A DNA stretch of 64,000 nt, from NCBI RefSeq assembly GCF_014638745.1, contig NZ_BMFO01000002.1, positions 124,001 to 188,000 of the forward strand. Direction: 5' to 3'. The stretch's first letter is position 1, and every line of letters starts with the position of its first letter. Shown here piece after piece: positions 13,573-20,943 of this stretch. Both the position numbers and the translations under genes were made by a program. The DNA comes from Arenimonas maotaiensis. Its GTDB lineage: Bacteria > Pseudomonadota > Gammaproteobacteria > Xanthomonadales > Xanthomonadaceae. Below the pieces are notes generated by a model. It was given only the letters and a program-made list of their open reading frames with translations, was not told the DNA's origin and did not search any database.

Positions 13573-13612
13573 CGTGGTTCGGAAACTCAACATAAAACCG
13601 GGAAATGCACCC

Positions 13613-15718
13613 ATGAAGAAAATCCAACGTTTGGTCTACCGTTCGCCGCTCGCCGCCGCGGTCGCCCTTGGTCTGTTCGCCGCCCCGATGGCGCAGGCGT
13701 TCGAATTCGAGAAAGGCGAGCTCAAGGGCAGTCTGGACACCACCGTGTCCTACGGCATTTCCGTCCGCACCGAGGATCCGGCCGACGGCCTGGTCGCGAA
13801 GGCCACCATCAACCCCGCCATCGCCTTGGCCGGCACCACGCCCTCCGCGCCGTTCAACAGCTTGGGCGCCTTCCCCGGTTCCGCCGCGCAGGCCGCCGCG
13901 CCGGGCCGCTGGTCGGTCAACCGCGACGACGGCAACGTCAAATACGAGAAAGGCGACGCCTTCTCCAACGCCTTCAAGGTCACCTCCGAGCTGGAAATGA
14001 GCTGGCGCGATTGGGGCTTCTTCAGCCGGGCCAGCTACTTCTACGATTTCGAGAACAGCGACCGCAACGATTTCGCCAAGGAAGCCGAGCAGAAGGTCGC
14101 CAGCGACTTCCGCCTGTACGACGCCTTCGTTTACAAGAACTACGCGCTCGGCGCCAACGACGAAGTGTCCGGCAGCATCCGCTTCGGCAAGCAGGTGGTC
14201 AGCTGGGGCGAAAGCACCTTCATCCAGAACGGCATCAACGTGGTCAATCCGGTCGACGTCTCGCGCCTGCGCGTGGCCGGTGCCGAGCTGAAGGAAGCGT
14301 TCCTGCCGACCAACATGCTCTTCGCTTCGACCAAGTTCACCGACAACCTGTCGATGGAGGCCTATTACCAGTTCGACTGGAAGCCGACCGAAATCGATCC
14401 CTCGGGCACCTATTTCAGCACCAACGACTTCGCCTCGCCGGGCGGCACCTACATCATGCTCGGCTTCGGCACCGTCACCCAGCCGGTGAACAACCCGGAA
14501 AACTACGCCAGCACCTGCATCGTCGGCCAGCCGGCCGCCGGTCAGGCCAACGTGGCCAACTCCGACCGCTTCGCCGAGCTGTCGGCCATCTACGGCCCGA
14601 CCACCGCCGCCCAGCTGCTGGCCGCCGCCTGCGGCGTCGCCGGCCCGCGTCTGGCCGACCGTAAAGCCCGCGATTCCGGCCAGTTCGGTCTGGCCCTGCG
14701 CTGGTACGCCGAAGCCCTGAACCAGACCGAGTTCGGCTTCTACGCCATGAACTACCACAGCCGCCTGCCGTTGCTGTCCGGCCGCGCGGTGACCACCGTG
14801 CTGCCGGCTCCGGCCGCCAACTCGGCCGGCCTGATCGTCGAATATCCGGAAGACATCCACCTGTTCGGCGTCAGCTGGAACACCACCCTGCCGGCCGGCA
14901 TCGCCTGGCAAGGCGAGGTCAGCTACCGTCCGAACATGCCGCTGCAGGTCGACGACGTCGAACTGCTGTTCGCGGCCCTGAGCCCGATCAACCTGGCCCT
15001 CCAGGCCAGCGGCGCGCCGCGCGCGTCTTGGTTCTGCAGCCAGCTGCTGCCGAACTGCACCAACGTCAATCCGGGCCAGTTCATCCAAGGCTGGCGCGAG
15101 CATGAAGTGACCCAGTTCCAGTCCACCTTCACCAAGGCCTTCGGCCAGATGCTGGGCGCGGACCAGATCGCCCTGGTCGGTGAAATCGGCGGCACCTGGG
15201 TCAACCTGCCGGATCCGTCCGTGCTGCGCTATGAAGGCGAAGGCACCGACACCGGCGGCGGCGTGTCGCTGATCAACGATCTGCTGCCGCTGATCTCGGC
15301 CTGGAACGCCAACCCGAACCCGGCCACCAACGGGGCCGCGCTGGCCGCCCTGAACGCGGCCCTGAACAACCCGCTGTACGCCGGCGCGCTGCGCAACCCG
15401 GTCACCACGGTCGACGGCTTCCCGACCGATTTCTCGTGGGGCTACCGCATCGCGGCCCGCGCCGACTACAACAGCGTGTTCGGCACCCCGATCACCCTGT
15501 CGCCGCGCATCGCGTTCAACCACGACGTCAAGGGCATCACCCCGGGCCCGGGCGGCAACTTCCTGGAGGGCCGCAAGTCGATCACGGTCGGCGTCGAAGC
15601 CAACTACCTCAATAGCTGGGTGTTCGACCTGAGCTACACCGGCTTCTCCGGCGCCGGCCAGCTCAACCAGATCTATGACCGTGACTTCTACTCGTTCTCC
15701 GTGAAATACTCGTTCTAA
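13613..15718 (+). CDS. DUF1302 outer-membrane beta-barrel protein
   Basis: 701 residues. Signal peptide MKKIQRLVYRSPLAAAVALGLF...AQA, then FEFEKGELKGSLDTTVSYGISVR, the DUF1302 opening, many alternating beta strands, SIRFGKQVVSWGESTFIQNGIN, and an aromatic C-terminus (FYSFSVKYSF) as required for BAM-assisted insertion. DUF1302 proteins are predicted large porin-like barrels of unproven function, often next to DUF1329 and RND genes; transport of hydrophobic compounds across the outer membrane is the common inference. First gene of the cassette. The ATG at 13613 gives a proper signal peptide; a GTG at 13574 would add residues before it. Confidence 0.9.
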   Translation: MKKIQRLVYRSPLAAAVALGLFAAPMAQAFEFEKGELKGSLDTTVSYGISVRTEDPADGLVAKATINPAIALAGTTPSAPFNSLGAFPGSAAQAAAPGRWSVNRDDGNVKYEKGDAFSNAFKVTSELEMSWRDWGFFSRASYFYDFENSDRNDFAKEAEQKVASDFRLYDAFVYKNYALGANDEVSGSIRFGKQVVSWGESTFIQNGINVVNPVDVSRLRVAGAELKEAFLPTNMLFASTKFTDNLSMEAYYQFDWKPTEIDPSGTYFSTNDFASPGGTYIMLGFGTVTQPVNNPENYASTCIVGQPAAGQANVANSDRFAELSAIYGPTTAAQLLAAACGVAGPRLADRKARDSGQFGLALRWYAEALNQTEFGFYAMNYHSRLPLLSGRAVTTVLPAPAANSAGLIVEYPEDIHLFGVSWNTTLPAGIAWQGEVSYRPNMPLQVDDVELLFAALSPINLALQASGAPRASWFCSQLLPNCTNVNPGQFIQGWREHEVTQFQSTFTKAFGQMLGADQIALVGEIGGTWVNLPDPSVLRYEGEGTDTGGGVSLINDLLPLISAWNANPNPATNGAALAALNAALNNPLYAGALRNPVTTVDGFPTDFSWGYRIAARADYNSVFGTPITLSPRIAFNHDVKGITPGPGGNFLEGRKSITVGVEANYLNSWVFDLSYTGFSGAGQLNQIYDRDFYSFSVKYSF

Positions 15719-15740: not shown

Positions 15741-17108
15741 ATGAAAGCAGCAATCCGCAACAAGACCGCGTTGGCCGTATTGGCCGGCGCGGGCCTCCTG
15801 CTCGCGCAGGGTGCCCCGGCCGCCGTCAGCGCCGACAAGGCCGCCCAGCTCGGCGGCAGCCTGACCCCGCTCGGCGCCGAAAAGGCCGGCAACGGCGGCG
15901 CCATCCCGGCCTGGACCGGCGGCATCACCCGTCCGCCGGCGGGCTACAAGGCCGGCATGTTCCACCCGGATCCGTTCGCCGACGACAAGGTCCAGTTCGC
16001 CATCACCCCGGCCAACTACAAGCAGTATTCGGACCAGCTGTCGCCCGGCCAGGAGGCGATGTTCGCGAAGTACCGCACCTTCAAAATGAACGTCTATCCG
16101 ACCCGCCGTTCGGCTTCCAGCCCGCAGCGCACCTATGAGTTCACCAAGCGCAACGCCACCCAGTGTCAGCTGGTCGCCAACGGCGAAGGCGTCAAGAACT
16201 GCGCCGAGGGCATCCCGTTCCCGATTCCGCAGAACGGCTACGAAGTGATCTGGAACCACAAGCTGAAGTACAAGGGCGTGTCGTTCTCGCGCTTCGCCAA
16301 CCAGGCCGCGCCCACCGCGTCCGGCGCCTTCACCCTGATCCGTCTGCGTGAAGACGGCTTGGGTCTGTACTACAAGCCGGGCAACACCACCGAAAACATC
16401 AACAGCATCCTGCTGTACTTCAAGCAGGAAGTGCTGGGTCCGGCGCGTCTGGCCGGCCAGGTGCTGTTGGTGCACGAAAGCCTCAACTCGGTGGCTTCGC
16501 CGCGCAAGGCCTGGGTCTACAATCCCGGCCAACGCCGCGTGCGCCTGGCGCCGAACGTCGCCTACGACAACCCCGGCACCGCCACCGACGGCCTGCGCAC
16601 CAACGACATGACCGATATGTTCAACGGCGCCATGGACCGCTTCGACTGGAAGCTGGTCGGCAAGCGCGAGATGTACGTGCCGTACAACGCGTACAAGGCG
16701 CACAGCGGCAGCACCAAGGTCAAGGACCTGATCCGCCCGAACCACCTCAACCCGGATTACCTGCGTTACGAACTGCACCGCGTGTGGGTGGTCGACGCCA
16801 CGCTCAAGCCCGGCAAGCGCCACATCAACTCGCGCCGCACCTTCTATGTGGACGAGGACAGCTGGCAGATCCTGATGATCGACCACTACGACGGCCAGGG
16901 CAAGCTGTGGCGTTACTCGGAAGCCCCGTCGGTGAACTACTACGAAGTGCCGGTGTTCTGGGCCACCATCGAGACCCACCACGACCTGAAGTCGGGCCGC
17001 TACATCGCCGGTCTGCTCGACAACGAAGACAAGCCGTTCAACTTCGGATTCCAAAGCGCGCCGAGCGACTACACGCCGGCCAACCTCCGGAACGAAGGCG
17101 TCCGTTGA
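15741..17108 (+). CDS. DUF1329 periplasmic protein
   Basis: 455 residues. N-terminal signal sequence (MKAAIRNKTALAVLAGAGLLLAQGAPAA), then the DUF1329 body with GGSLTPLGAEKAGNGGAIPAWTGG near the start, VWVVDATLKPGKRHINSRRTFYVDEDSW and FNFGFQSAPSDYTPANLRNEGVR at the end. The family is related to the LolA/LolB lipid-carrier fold, and a periplasmic lipid or hydrophobic-cargo shuttle is the usual inference; there is no direct proof. It lies 22 bases after the DUF1302 gene with a GGGAGG site upstream and is followed by an intrinsic terminator. Confidence 0.9.
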   Translation: MKAAIRNKTALAVLAGAGLLLAQGAPAAVSADKAAQLGGSLTPLGAEKAGNGGAIPAWTGGITRPPAGYKAGMFHPDPFADDKVQFAITPANYKQYSDQLSPGQEAMFAKYRTFKMNVYPTRRSASSPQRTYEFTKRNATQCQLVANGEGVKNCAEGIPFPIPQNGYEVIWNHKLKYKGVSFSRFANQAAPTASGAFTLIRLREDGLGLYYKPGNTTENINSILLYFKQEVLGPARLAGQVLLVHESLNSVASPRKAWVYNPGQRRVRLAPNVAYDNPGTATDGLRTNDMTDMFNGAMDRFDWKLVGKREMYVPYNAYKAHSGSTKVKDLIRPNHLNPDYLRYELHRVWVVDATLKPGKRHINSRRTFYVDEDSWQILMIDHYDGQGKLWRYSEAPSVNYYEVPVFWATIETHHDLKSGRYIAGLLDNEDKPFNFGFQSAPSDYTPANLRNEGVR

Positions 17109-17171: not shown

Positions 17172-18248
17172 ATGGCTGACAAGCCGCAACACCCATGGCG
17201 CATCGTTGGCGCCGTTTCCTTTTTGGCGCTACCGCTGCTGGCGGCCGGCCTCGACGCCGCTCAAGGCGATCCGTCCATCAGCGATTCCGAGATTCTGCCG
17301 AAAGCGGCGCACAGCCTGCTGCTGGACATCGCCGGCACCGGCGACGGTTTCGTCGCGGTCGGTGAACGCGGCCACGTGCTGGTCTCCGCCGACGGCAAGA
17401 CATGGACCCAGGCCAAGGTTCCGACCCGTTCGACCCTGACCAGCGTCAGCGCGCAGGGGGCGTCGATCTGGGCCGCCGGGCATGACGGCGTCATCATCCA
17501 CTCCGCCGACGGCGGCAAGACCTGGCAACGCCAACGCGTGCAGCCGTGGTCGGCCGACAGCCGGGAGCCGACCAACGGTTCGCCGATCCTTGACACCCTG
17601 TTCCTCAGCGCCAACGAGGGCTACGCCGTGGGCGCCTACAGCCTGCTGCTGAAGACCGTCGACGGCGGCGCCAGTTGGACGGCGCTCAGCGTCGCCGGCG
17701 AAGCGGCCGTGGCGCCGGTGGCGACCGCCAGCGACTCCGGCGTGTTCGACGACAGCATGCTGGAATTGGCCGCGGAGTCCGATCCGCACCTGAACGCCAT
17801 CGCGCGCACCGATGCCGGCATGCTGCTGGTGATGGGCGAGCGCGGCGCCGGCTTCCGTTCCGCCGACGGCGGCGCCAGCTGGAGCAAGATCCGACTGCCG
17901 TACGAGGGCTCCATGTTCGGCCTGCTCGCGCTCGGCGGCGAGAAGGTCCTGGCTTACGGCCTGCGCGGCAACGTGTATGAATCAGACGACGCCGGCGGCA
18001 GCTGGCGCAAGGTCGACAGCGGCACCGGAACCAGCCTGATCGGCGGCACCGTCGGCCCCGACGGCACCGTGGTGCTGGTCGGCAGCAACGGCACGCTGCT
18101 CGCGCGCCGCGCCGGCGCGCAGGCGTTCAGCGCCTCGAACATCCAGCTGGGCTCCGGCCAGGTGCCGGCGCTGTCGGCGGCGGTCGCCGCCGACGGCGGC
18201 TATCTGCTGACGTCCGACCTCGGCGCCGTCAGCGCCAAAGTACAGTGA
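17172..18248 (+). CDS. YCF48/Hcf136-like beta-propeller protein, periplasmic
   Basis: 358 residues. A hydrophobic N-terminus (about 12-28) suggests export. The rest contains repeated BNR/YCF48-type motifs of the form 'S-DGG-SW-': SADGKTWTQ, SADGGKTWQR, TVDGGASWTA, SADGGASWSK, SDDAGGSWRK, which build a beta-propeller. YCF48-like proteins are frequent neighbours of RND/MMPL transporters with DUF1302/DUF1329 genes and are thought to be accessory or assembly factors. A strong GGGGGAGA ribosome-binding site precedes the start. It lies 10 bases upstream of the transporter gene, so the two are almost certainly translated from one message. Confidence 0.85.
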   Translation: MADKPQHPWRIVGAVSFLALPLLAAGLDAAQGDPSISDSEILPKAAHSLLLDIAGTGDGFVAVGERGHVLVSADGKTWTQAKVPTRSTLTSVSAQGASIWAAGHDGVIIHSADGGKTWQRQRVQPWSADSREPTNGSPILDTLFLSANEGYAVGAYSLLLKTVDGGASWTALSVAGEAAVAPVATASDSGVFDDSMLELAAESDPHLNAIARTDAGMLLVMGERGAGFRSADGGASWSKIRLPYEGSMFGLLALGGEKVLAYGLRGNVYESDDAGGSWRKVDSGTGTSLIGGTVGPDGTVVLVGSNGTLLARRAGAQAFSASNIQLGSGQVPALSAAVAADGGYLLTSDLGAVSAKVQ

Positions 18249-18258
18249 AGGAACAGCC

Positions 18259-20943
18259 ATGAATCGATTCGAACGCCTCGCGGAACGTCTGGTCTTCGGA
18301 AACCGCGCCCTGGTGCTGGCGGTTTTCGTGCTGGTCACCGCGGCCATGGCGTATTTCGCCAGCCAGCTGAAGGTGGACGCCGGCTTCAACAAACAGGTGC
18401 CGCTGCAGCACGAGTACATGCGCACCTTCACCGACTACCAGGCCGATTTCGGCGGCGCCAACCGCGTACTGATCGCGGTGATGGCCAAGGACGGCAACAT
18501 GTTCTCCAAGGAGTACATGGCCACCCTGGAGAACGTCACCAATGACGTGATCAACCTGGACGCCACCGATGACGCCAAGGCGCGCTCGCTGTTCACCCCG
18601 AACGTGCGCTACATCGAAGTGGTCGAGGACGGCCTGTCCGGCGAGAACGTGATTCCCCAGGATTTCACCCCGAACCTCGAGGGCTTCGAAGCCACGCCGG
18701 AGCAGTTCGCGAAGATCAAGGACAACATCGTCAAGGCCGGCATCACCGGCCGGCTGGTGGCCAAGGACTATTCCGGCTCGATGGTCTGGGCCGACCTGAT
18801 CCCGGAAAGCGAGGTCAACAAGCTCGACTACCAGGCCGTGGCCAAGCAGCTGGAGGCCATCCGCACCAAGTACGAGAACGAGAACACCACGGTTCACATC
18901 ATCGGCTTCGCCAAGATGGTGGGCGACATCTCCGACGGCGCGATGAGCGTGATCAAGTTCTTCCTGATCACCATCGCCTTCACCTGGCTGCTGCTGTACC
19001 TGTACTCGAGTTCGATGAAGCTGGCTTCGCTGACCGTGCTGTCGGCGCTGGTCTCGGTGGTCTGGATGCTGGGCGCGCTGAAGCTGATGGGTTTCGGCAT
19101 CGATCCGATGAACATGCTCACGCCGTTCCTGATCTTCGCCATCGCGGTCAGCCACGGCGAACAGATGATCAACCGCTTCCGCGGCGAGATCTTCTTCGGC
19201 GGCCTGGAGGACGGCACCGTCGAGCAGCTGCGGCTGAAGGCGCGGCACGCGGTCGATCCGAAAACCGCCGCCATCCGCAGCTTCCACGCGCTGCTGATCC
19301 CGGGCACGGTTGCGCTGCTGGCCGGCTGCATCGGCTTCGGCGCGATCATGGTGATCCCGATCCAGATGATCCGCGAGCTGGCGATCACCGCCACCGTCGG
19401 CGTGGCGCTGACCATCATCACCGACCTGGTGCTGCTGCCGATCCTGCTCAGCTACACCAAGCTGCGCAAGCTCGACAAGAAGCGCGAGTTCCGCTTGCGC
19501 CAGCTGACCCAGTTCGACAAGATCTGGGCCGCGCTGTCCAAGCTGTCGCGTCCGAACGCCGCCGCCACGGTGTTGGCCATCGGCGCGGTGGTCTGGGCGA
19601 TCGCCTGGTGGCACGGCAACAAGGTGATGATCGGCGACGCCCAGCAGGGCGTGGCCGAACTGCGCCCGGAAGCGCGCTACAACCAAGACGCCGAGCTGAT
19701 CAGCAGCAAGTTCGCGCTCGGCGTCGACACCATGAACGTCATCGTCGAGGCCGGTCCCTCGGCCTGCACCACCAGCTACAAGGCGATGGAGACCATCGAC
19801 CGCTACGCCTGGCACATGGCCAATGTCGACGGCGTGGAGCAGGTGATCACGCTGCCGATGGCGGCCAAGCAGGTCAACGCCGGCTGGAACGACGGCTCGC
19901 CGCGCTGGAAGGTGCTGCCGCGCGATCCGGACACCCTGCGCCAGTCGACGCAGAGCTTCGAGACCGATTCTGGCCTGCTCAACGCCGACTGCTCGGCGAT
20001 GCCGGTGACCATCTTCACCAAGGACCACAAGTCGACCACCATCGACCGCATCGTGGCCGAGACCAAGAAGTTCCGCGACGACAACAACGCCTATGAGCCG
20101 GGCTTCGCCGCCAAGCGCGACGCCGCCGTGGCCAAGGCCCAGGAGAACGGCGAGAACTACGTCACCGACCAGGTCAACTTCCGCATGGCCACCGGTCCGC
20201 TCGGCGTGCAGGCGGCGACCAACGACACCGTCCGCGAGAAGGAGCATTTGATCCTGTGGCTGCTGTACGGCGCGGTGTTCGCCATGTGCTGGATCAGCTT
20301 CAAGAGCTGGCGCGCGGCGCTGTGCGTGGCGCTGCCGCTGATGATGGTGACCGAGCTCGGCCACAGCCTGATGGTGCAGCTGGACATCGGCATGAAGGTC
20401 AACACGCTGACGGTGGTGGCGCTCGGCGTCGGCATCGGCGTCGACTACGGCATCTACATCTTCGCCCGCATGCGCGAGGCGATGAGCCACCGCATCGAGT
20501 TCGTGGCCGCCGACAAGGACCGCGACTTCTCGGTGACCCCGGAAGAGCTGCATGCGCTCAAGCACGGCCATCTCGAGGACGGCGGCGCGCATCCGGACGC
20601 GCAGACCGCGACCGCCGCGCACTTCGACGGCCTGGACCGCGACGCCGACGGCCGCCTGACCCGCGAGGAGTTCAACGAGGGCCAGGAGCACCTGCGCACG
20701 CTGTCGGAAAGCTACTTCATCGCGCTCAAGACCACCGGCATCGCCATCTTCTACACCGCGCTGACGCTGGCGGTGGGCGTGGCCATGTGGATCTTCTCCG
20801 ACCTGAAGTTCCAGGCCGACATGGGCATCATGCTGACCTTCATGTTCGTGGTGAACATGCTGGCCGCCATCGTGTTCCTGCCGGCGCTGTGCCGCTGGCT
20901 GCTGCGTCCGAAGGAAAAGGACGACTGGGTCGCCCAGCTGTAA
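18259..20943 (+). CDS. RND/MMPL-superfamily transporter with inserted EF-hand pair
   Basis: 894 residues with the RND duplication: TM1 near 14-33, a large periplasmic domain, TM2-6 (about 234-400), TM7 near 434-453, a second periplasmic domain, and TM8-12 (from about 663). TM10 ends in the MMPL motif GVGIGVDYGIYIFARMRE. Between TM10 and TM11, a loop that faces the cytoplasm in RND topology, lie about 75 extra residues with two calcium-binding loops: D752-K-D-R-D-F-S-V-T-P-E-E763 and D793-R-D-A-D-G-R-L-T-R-E-E804. The second is canonical; the first has Phe for Gly at position 6. MMPL pumps move lipids or hydrophobic molecules using the proton gradient. The EF-hands suggest calcium control. The cargo is unknown. 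Confidence 0.92.
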   Translation: MNRFERLAERLVFGNRALVLAVFVLVTAAMAYFASQLKVDAGFNKQVPLQHEYMRTFTDYQADFGGANRVLIAVMAKDGNMFSKEYMATLENVTNDVINLDATDDAKARSLFTPNVRYIEVVEDGLSGENVIPQDFTPNLEGFEATPEQFAKIKDNIVKAGITGRLVAKDYSGSMVWADLIPESEVNKLDYQAVAKQLEAIRTKYENENTTVHIIGFAKMVGDISDGAMSVIKFFLITIAFTWLLLYLYSSSMKLASLTVLSALVSVVWMLGALKLMGFGIDPMNMLTPFLIFAIAVSHGEQMINRFRGEIFFGGLEDGTVEQLRLKARHAVDPKTAAIRSFHALLIPGTVALLAGCIGFGAIMVIPIQMIRELAITATVGVALTIITDLVLLPILLSYTKLRKLDKKREFRLRQLTQFDKIWAALSKLSRPNAAATVLAIGAVVWAIAWWHGNKVMIGDAQQGVAELRPEARYNQDAELISSKFALGVDTMNVIVEAGPSACTTSYKAMETIDRYAWHMANVDGVEQVITLPMAAKQVNAGWNDGSPRWKVLPRDPDTLRQSTQSFETDSGLLNADCSAMPVTIFTKDHKSTTIDRIVAETKKFRDDNNAYEPGFAAKRDAAVAKAQENGENYVTDQVNFRMATGPLGVQAATNDTVREKEHLILWLLYGAVFAMCWISFKSWRAALCVALPLMMVTELGHSLMVQLDIGMKVNTLTVVALGVGIGVDYGIYIFARMREAMSHRIEFVAADKDRDFSVTPEELHALKHGHLEDGGAHPDAQTATAAHFDGLDRDADGRLTREEFNEGQEHLRTLSESYFIALKTTGIAIFYTALTLAVGVAMWIFSDLKFQADMGIMLTFMFVVNMLAAIVFLPALCRWLLRPKEKDDWVAQL

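Follow-up and report, generated by a model that had tools for sequence, protein, structure and literature searches.

An EF-hand pair inserted in an HAE3-like RND transporter of Arenimonas maotaiensis: a possible calcium-controlled exporter arisen by recent domain insertion

The stretch of DNA analysed here (the window) comprises 64,000 nucleotides of Arenimonas maotaiensis (contig NZ_BMFO01000002.1, positions 124,001 to 188,000). On its forward strand, at 18259..20943, lies an open reading frame of 894 residues with an ATG start, which encodes an AmeD-like transporter of the RND/MMPL type. The transporter belongs, as the D subunit, to a type of cassette that is already known and associated with hydrophobic compounds. 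It carries an EF-hand pair (residues 743-813, 20485..20697, same strand) inserted between the tenth and eleventh transmembrane helices (TM10 and TM11), which is absent in the other relatives examined. The family assignment made in the initial annotation is borne out by a match to the Pfam MMPL profile (E = 2.6e-18) and by the full-length structural model, which shows the twofold architecture of RND proteins and their two large periplasmic loops. The best PDB matches of this model were MmpL4, MmpL5 and MmpL3 (Foldseek, E down to 7.7e-23), with Z values of 40 to 42 against RND pumps; by sequence, a phmmer search with the full-length transporter matched no PDB entry. The HAE3 model TIGR00921 of NCBIfam gave an E value of 9.3e-35, but its 119.8 bits stay under the curated cut-off of 351.9, and the transporter is therefore termed HAE3-like only and filed under RND/MMPL.

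The insert consists of 71 residues in place of the short TM10-TM11 turn, a net gain of 67 (99 residues from GVDY to KTTG, against 32); the initial annotation had located it correctly and slightly overstated its size at about 75. The translation agrees with the two EF loops that had been read from it, whose first residues lie 41 apart. Loop 1, DKDRDFSVTPEE (residues 752-763, 20512..20547, forward strand), has Phe at position 6, where both insert-bearing relatives have Arg, and loop 2, DRDADGRLTREE (residues 793-804, 20635..20670, forward strand), is canonical. The isolated window insert of 72 residues exceeds the cut-offs of four Pfam EF-hand models, namely EF-hand_7 (30.7 bits, cut-off 30), EF-hand_5, EF-hand_1 and EF-hand_6, and thus qualifies as an EF-hand pair by sequence profile. 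In the full-length window protein EF-hand_7 aligns at 748-807 with an E value of 3.3e-5 and 24.6 bits, under the cut-off of 30. A strict EF-loop signature accompanied by a second, loose one arose in two of 200,000 shuffles of the insert, and among the 78 other locus proteins (three of them cut before the insertion site) the loose signature occurs in one and the strict one in none, so that the pair of loops is beyond chance. In each of the three carriers both loops have Asp at positions 1, 3 and 5 and Glu at position 12, and the acidic residues, the conservation of which had been proposed as a check, are thus retained in every insert-bearing sequence. In total the insert holds 17 Asp or Glu against 8 Lys or Arg. 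RND topology, known for the family and matched by the fold of the full-length model, places it on the cytoplasmic side, as had been proposed.

The transporter was matched in 53 of 61 genomes (its own and 60 relatives), with rows that span the insert only in its own genome and in two others (G001 and G013). Within the genus (Arenimonas-like, Lysobacteraceae) this amounts to three of 27 genomes. Out of 105 loci found, 80 named loci were kept. Two of these carry the insert, L054 from the metagenome-assembled genome (MAG) of Arenimonas sp. GDDSR-1 and L055 from a gammaproteobacterial MAG; three are cut before the insertion site (L091, L109 and L117). In 64 loci the distance from GVDY to KTTG is 32 or 33 residues, against 99 in the insert-bearing stretch, and the remaining 11, all distant, also have a short loop (recognised from a second motif in 10 of them and by eye in L125). 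The alignment of homologues that the initial annotation called for thus finds the same insertion in a single clade and in none of the 75 other readable loci. In a quick tree calculated with the insert removed, the three carriers form one clade with a Shimodaira-Hasegawa-like approximate likelihood ratio (SH-aLRT) support of 99, and the insert-free L057 is the nearest outside sequence (support 97); the tree covers 75 proteins, with six of the 80 loci left out for short proteins, and its supports are SH-aLRT values only, with no bootstrap. An assembly artefact is ruled out by the agreement of the insert in three genomes. The branch of the window transporter in this tree has a length of 0.084, compared with 0.003 and 0.016 for the insert-bearing relatives, and the window copy seems to be evolving faster than these two.

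Codon comparisons argue that the insert has been retained by selection. Between the window and the two insert-bearing relatives the synonymous divergence (dS) is 0.42 to 0.50, and the ratio of replacement to synonymous divergence (dN/dS) amounts to 0.097 and 0.112 in the insert against 0.092 and 0.085 in the rest of the pump; between the two relatives the values are 0.029 and 0.045, respectively. The synonymous excess in the insert has p values of 4e-8, 3e-7 and 1e-9 for the three pairs, and the balance of synonymous and replacement changes is indistinguishable from that in the rest of the pump (p 1.0, 0.49 and 1.0). Judged by these counts, the insert is under purifying selection like the remainder of the protein. 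Replacement changes are confined to residues 757, 758, 782, 783, 796, 802 and 803, and positions 1, 3, 5, 9 and 12 are unchanged in both loops of the three carriers, which is suggestive of a conservation of the coordinating positions.

A second alteration of the same lineage concerns the cytoplasmic loop between TM4 and TM5 (residues 314-345, 19198..19293, forward strand). By the pseudo-twofold symmetry of RND proteins this loop corresponds to the TM10-TM11 loop, and it lies on the same face. The three carriers show 17 fixed differences outside the insert from both L057 and L056 (two further ones, at 807 and 813, lie within the insert and were excluded), and seven of the 17 fall between residues 318 and 339. 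The TM4-TM5 loop accounts for 3.9 percent of the alignment columns, and in the 19 other rows of the clade it contributes 3.8 percent of the variability. This test used 22 of the 30 aligned rows, the eight rows outside the Arenimonas clade being left out and the clade loci L068, L091 and L104 not being aligned. In 12 control comparisons, which partly overlap and include one pair read both ways, 31 of 696 differences lie in the loop, against the 7 of 17 in the carriers (Fisher p 9e-6); with non-overlapping controls the count is 25 of 516 (p 2e-5). Single controls reach 8 of 125 (L061, L073) and 6 of 84 (L057, L056), and some change thus occurs in this loop outside the carriers as well. When any 32-residue window was allowed and sites were weighted by their variability, a simulation gave P 0.0018.

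The same loop stands out at the codon level. Its replacement divergence from L057 is 0.224 in each of the two relatives and 0.225 in the window protein; elsewhere the values are 0.015, 0.017 and 0.046, which makes a 5- to 15-fold excess in the loop (p 3e-13, 1e-12 and 3e-7). Its synonymous divergence from L057 is ordinary (0.24, 0.40 and 0.43, against 0.29, 0.32 and 0.40 elsewhere), which makes a recombinational import of the segment unlikely. None of the 55 amino-acid sites of the protein that vary among the three carriers falls in the loop, whose synonymous changes continue at 8 to 10 of about 26 sites, and four of the six residues unique to the clade are found here. Locus L091, whose product shares 87 percent identity with that of the window, retains the former loop type; its contig stops short of the insertion site, which occurs without insert on a second contig of the L091 genome (G006). 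Read from these substitutions, the history of the TM4-TM5 loop is one of a burst of replacements in the insert-bearing lineage followed by conservation. A second, smaller cluster of differences from L057 that the clade shares lies around TM8-TM9, at residues 675, 679, 686, 691, 696 and 709 (20281-20385 of the window).

TM10 itself (residues 714-743, 20398..20487, forward strand, a helix in the full-length model) contains an Asp-Tyr motif, D729-Y730, and is directly followed by the EF-hand pair. Both residues are invariant across 43 aligned sequences and presumably are the counterpart of the proton-relay pair of MmpL3. The full-length model was built from 43 alignment rows, three of them informative at the insert, and reaches a predicted local distance difference test score (pLDDT) of 80.8. 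The insert with its flanks was also modelled alone, from three rows. In the second half of that model a helix at 779-790 is followed by a loop and by a single helix, 802-818, that runs across the junction of the second EF-hand with TM11, as a continuous connection would require, with pLDDT values of 77 and 78 for 792-811. The EF-hand protein S100A16 was a weak match to this model (Foldseek rank 11; VIA-align Z 2.4 over 54 residues, root mean square deviation 2.9), the other rows being weak or unrelated.

An insert of this kind appears to be rare. When it was searched for on its own in samples of genomes, none of 397 genomes of the order besides its own matched at E 1e-4; G001 and G013 were not in this sample, since both would have matched. 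At E 1e-3, matches were obtained in three of 368 genomes of the class and three of 397 of the phylum, again besides its own, and all six lie in frames of 215 to 355 residues. The EF-hand_7 profile at E 1e-5, a threshold that excludes weaker EF-hands, gave 62 matches in 40 of 229 class genomes; 61 are in frames of at most 301 residues, and only that of the window is in a large one (910 codons). With the insert alone as query, phmmer and a profile search recovered EF-hand proteins at E values no better than 0.011. Its closest relatives are the short multi-EF-hand proteins L139, L142 and L143, with 34 to 45 percent identity. No other EF-hand gene of its own genome matched the insert at E 1, and neither GC content (0.72 in the insert, 0.64 in the rest of the window gene) nor GC at third codon positions (equal to the rest in the window gene, 0.03 to 0.09 lower in the relatives) gave a clear foreign signature. 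The genome of A. maotaiensis also contains, on different contigs, two near-identical genes for a small EF-hand protein with a signal-like N-terminus (L135 and L136).

Selection on the insert, taken together with the coupled change in the TM4-TM5 loop, makes a role of the insert in the pump likely. We propose that an HAE3-like RND exporter gained a complete EF-hand pair in its cytoplasmic TM10-TM11 turn. The entering helix of the first EF-hand would prolong TM10 with its Asp-Tyr motif, and the exiting helix of the second would prolong TM11. The pair would most likely pack on the adjoining TM4-TM5 loop, which was remodelled in that lineage and then frozen. A loop with Phe or Arg at position 6 is expected to bind weakly, and calcium would sit mainly in loop 2 and less firmly in loop 1. 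By altering the packing, calcium may shift the TM4 and TM10 halves relative to each other, and transport would be tuned as cytosolic calcium rises. The change in the neighbouring loop and the retained module suggest that calcium adjusts the pump, and we infer calcium binding and gating by the EF-hand pair. That calcium, by altering the packing of the pair on the TM4-TM5 loop, tunes the pump appears to us an even call. Calcium gating in the strict sense, and with it the fuller picture of a calcium-controlled RND exporter that arose by recent domain insertion, with the pair in line with TM10 acting as a calcium clutch against the remodelled loop and the insert-free sisters as natural controls, is put forward more tentatively, as a possibility on which we would not yet count.

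Several observations weigh against this proposal. The insert is carried by three sequences only and is absent from every one of the 75 other loci in which this loop could be read. No Pfam EF-hand model passes its cut-off in any full-length carrier protein, and the isolated inserts of the two relatives pass that of EF-hand_1 only, with 25.6 and 25.5 bits for EF-hand_7, under the cut-off. Loop 2 has Gly at position 6, but loop 1, with Phe, Arg and Arg there, departs from the canonical form in every copy. The unchanged coordinating positions are not significant on their own, the number of changed sites being seven, and the TM4-TM5 window was picked after the cluster had been seen. In the full-length model pLDDT falls below 50 at 746-795 and 797-810, where three rows are informative; the insert with its flanks reaches 61.6 on its own, with a poor first half and part of TM10 as strands, and had no significant fold match (Foldseek). 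In the full-length model TM10 stops at 743, and a break between 810 and 815 divides the helices 802-810 and 815-846, in place of a continuous connection.

The selection on the insert and the coupled loop change would fit equally well if the EF-hand pair, with calcium or magnesium bound permanently or not at all in vivo, were a structural clamp that holds the TM10-TM11 loop to the TM4-TM5 loop and stabilises the pump or its oligomer without sensing. The non-canonical loop 1, in which switching may have been lost, is in line with this, and calcium can be a stabiliser as well as an effector in such bacterial proteins, according to the available portion of a review (PMC10574481). The retention of positions 1, 3, 5, 9 and 12, for which a purely structural helix bundle has no need, speaks against a clamp, weakly so with three sequences, and we consider it unlikely, though worth keeping in mind. 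Equally doubtful in our view is that the TM4-TM5 change is unrelated to the insert, for example as an imported segment or an adaptation of the same lineage to another cargo. The coincidence of both changes in three sequences, with order and cause unreadable, would allow this, and the small cluster at TM8-TM9 would be in keeping with it. The ordinary synonymous divergence, however, argues against import, four of the six clade-unique residues lie in this one loop, and the loop adjoins the insertion site as its pseudo-symmetric counterpart.

It seems improbable that the acidic insert serves to dock a partner from the cytosol, or takes the place of such a partner as a part of the pump. The charge of the insert would suit such a function, as would that of the cytoplasmic TM6-TM7 linker (residues 398-432, 19450..19554, forward strand), a possible docking surface with 11 Lys or Arg and 3 Asp or Glu, but this basic linker is also present in relatives without the insert. 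The linker was considered as a calmodulin-target-like segment as well and rejected: its helical moment is modest, reaching at most the 96th percentile among windows of the same protein, and with its presence in the insert-free relatives it gives no evidence of docking. EF-hands and carrier proteins are not known to us to be related in sequence, which counts against docking too. A precedent would be AcpM on the cytoplasmic face of MmpL5, where D40, D61, E46, E52 and D53 of AcpM touch basic MmpL5 residues, as described in the accessible part of PMC11633376. A passenger domain, inserted neutrally and tolerated in a surface turn, would agree with the exposure and variability of that turn among relatives and with the presence of the insert in one clade only, but is very improbable given a dN/dS of 0.10 and 0.11 at a dS near 0.5 against the window, the lack of a stop or frameshift in any of the three genomes and the change in the facing loop.

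RND pumps are usually held to be driven by cargo and the proton-motive force alone. If the EF-hand pair tunes the transporter as proposed, its own calcium module on the cytosolic side would directly show calcium to act as a regulator within bacterial cells, and would offer an entry point to the control of hydrophobe export. The locus would also be a clear case of a domain gained within a membrane protein together with an apparent compensating change in its neighbour, and close relatives without the insert and without the changed loop make cause and effect testable by swapping two short segments. In the literature searched (subscription papers lay mostly outside its scope) no work joining EF-hand, RND transporter and MMPL was found, nor was any by broader searches of titles and the beginnings of abstracts, and the statement in the initial annotation that no characterised calcium-controlled RND transporter is known holds within that scope. 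Bacterial EF-hand sensors such as EfhP are known, as far as the sources at hand go. In the available portions, the term 'rnd' does not occur in a review of rhizobacterial calcium-dependent proteins (PMC10574481), nor 'transporter' in a paper on the contexts of the DxDxDG motif (PMC3123361). What is new here is the clustering of clade-fixed differences in the TM4-TM5 loop beside an EF-hand insert; the kind of cassette, bacterial EF-hand sensors and a calcium effect on an efflux pump were already known.

The transporter gene is preceded on the same strand by genes for an AmeA-like DUF1302 protein (13574..15718; Pfam DUF1302, 1.4e-172), an AmeB-like, LolA-like DUF1329 protein (15741..17108; Pfam DUF1329, 1.4e-153) and an AmeC-like Ycf48/BNR protein (17172..18248; Pfam PSII_BNR, 8.9e-23), with gaps of 22, 63 and 10 bases between the four frames. 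In the AmeA-like protein the signal peptide begins, by eye, at an internal Met (MKKIQRL). The order DUF1302, DUF1329, Ycf48-like and RND on one strand is that of AmeABCD-type cassettes, and it is kept in 51 of the 53 loci that were fetched together with 7.9 kb or more of upstream sequence; the two loci in which it was not found (L127 and L133) both retain the Ycf48-like gene just upstream. A promoter scan found none. Given this AmeABCD-like membership, the transporter is probably a pump for hydrophobic cargo.

Among known systems the closest parallel is ameABCD of Castellaniella defragrans, which is described in the accessible part of its report as encoding one outer-membrane and two periplasmic proteins together with an HAE3-family RND transporter, and the deletion of which lowers monoterpene tolerance (PMC6394551). 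Likened by gene content and order, both cassettes have the same four gene types in identical order: DUF1302 outer-membrane, DUF1329 LolA-like, Ycf48-like (COG4447) and RND. AmeD of C. defragrans has 787 residues, against 894 here, and the term 'calcium' is absent from the text available (PMC6394551). Growth of Pseudomonas putida on Tween 20 requires PP_0765 and PP_0766, its proteins with DUF1302 and DUF1329, and their fitness correlates with that of PP_2018 and PP_2019 (PMC10866462, as far as accessible). Likened by description, this again ties DUF1302 and DUF1329 proteins to a periplasmic protein and an efflux transporter, whereas by their locus numbers the P. putida genes lie at two places instead of in one cassette; the portion at hand mentions no EF-hand (PMC10866462). 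The EF-hand pairs themselves resemble those of the small proteobacterial multi-EF-hand proteins L139, L142 and L143, which are short, have signal-like N-termini (by eye) and, in contrast to the protein described here, are not transporters. With MmpL5-AcpM the window protein shares the arrangement of an RND/MMPL transporter with a small acidic helical part at its cytoplasmic face; AcpM is a separate carrier protein and not an EF-hand, whereas the insert is built in, and the available parts of both papers make no mention of calcium dependence (PMC11633376, PMC12346298). The efflux pump LmrS of Staphylococcus aureus belongs to another superfamily (MFS), and the accessible text mentions no built-in EF-hand insert (PMC7642317). 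Calcium is reported there to enhance LmrS (PMC7642317), and in this respect the two pumps would be alike, as cases of calcium-responsive bacterial efflux, reported for LmrS and predicted for the transporter of A. maotaiensis.

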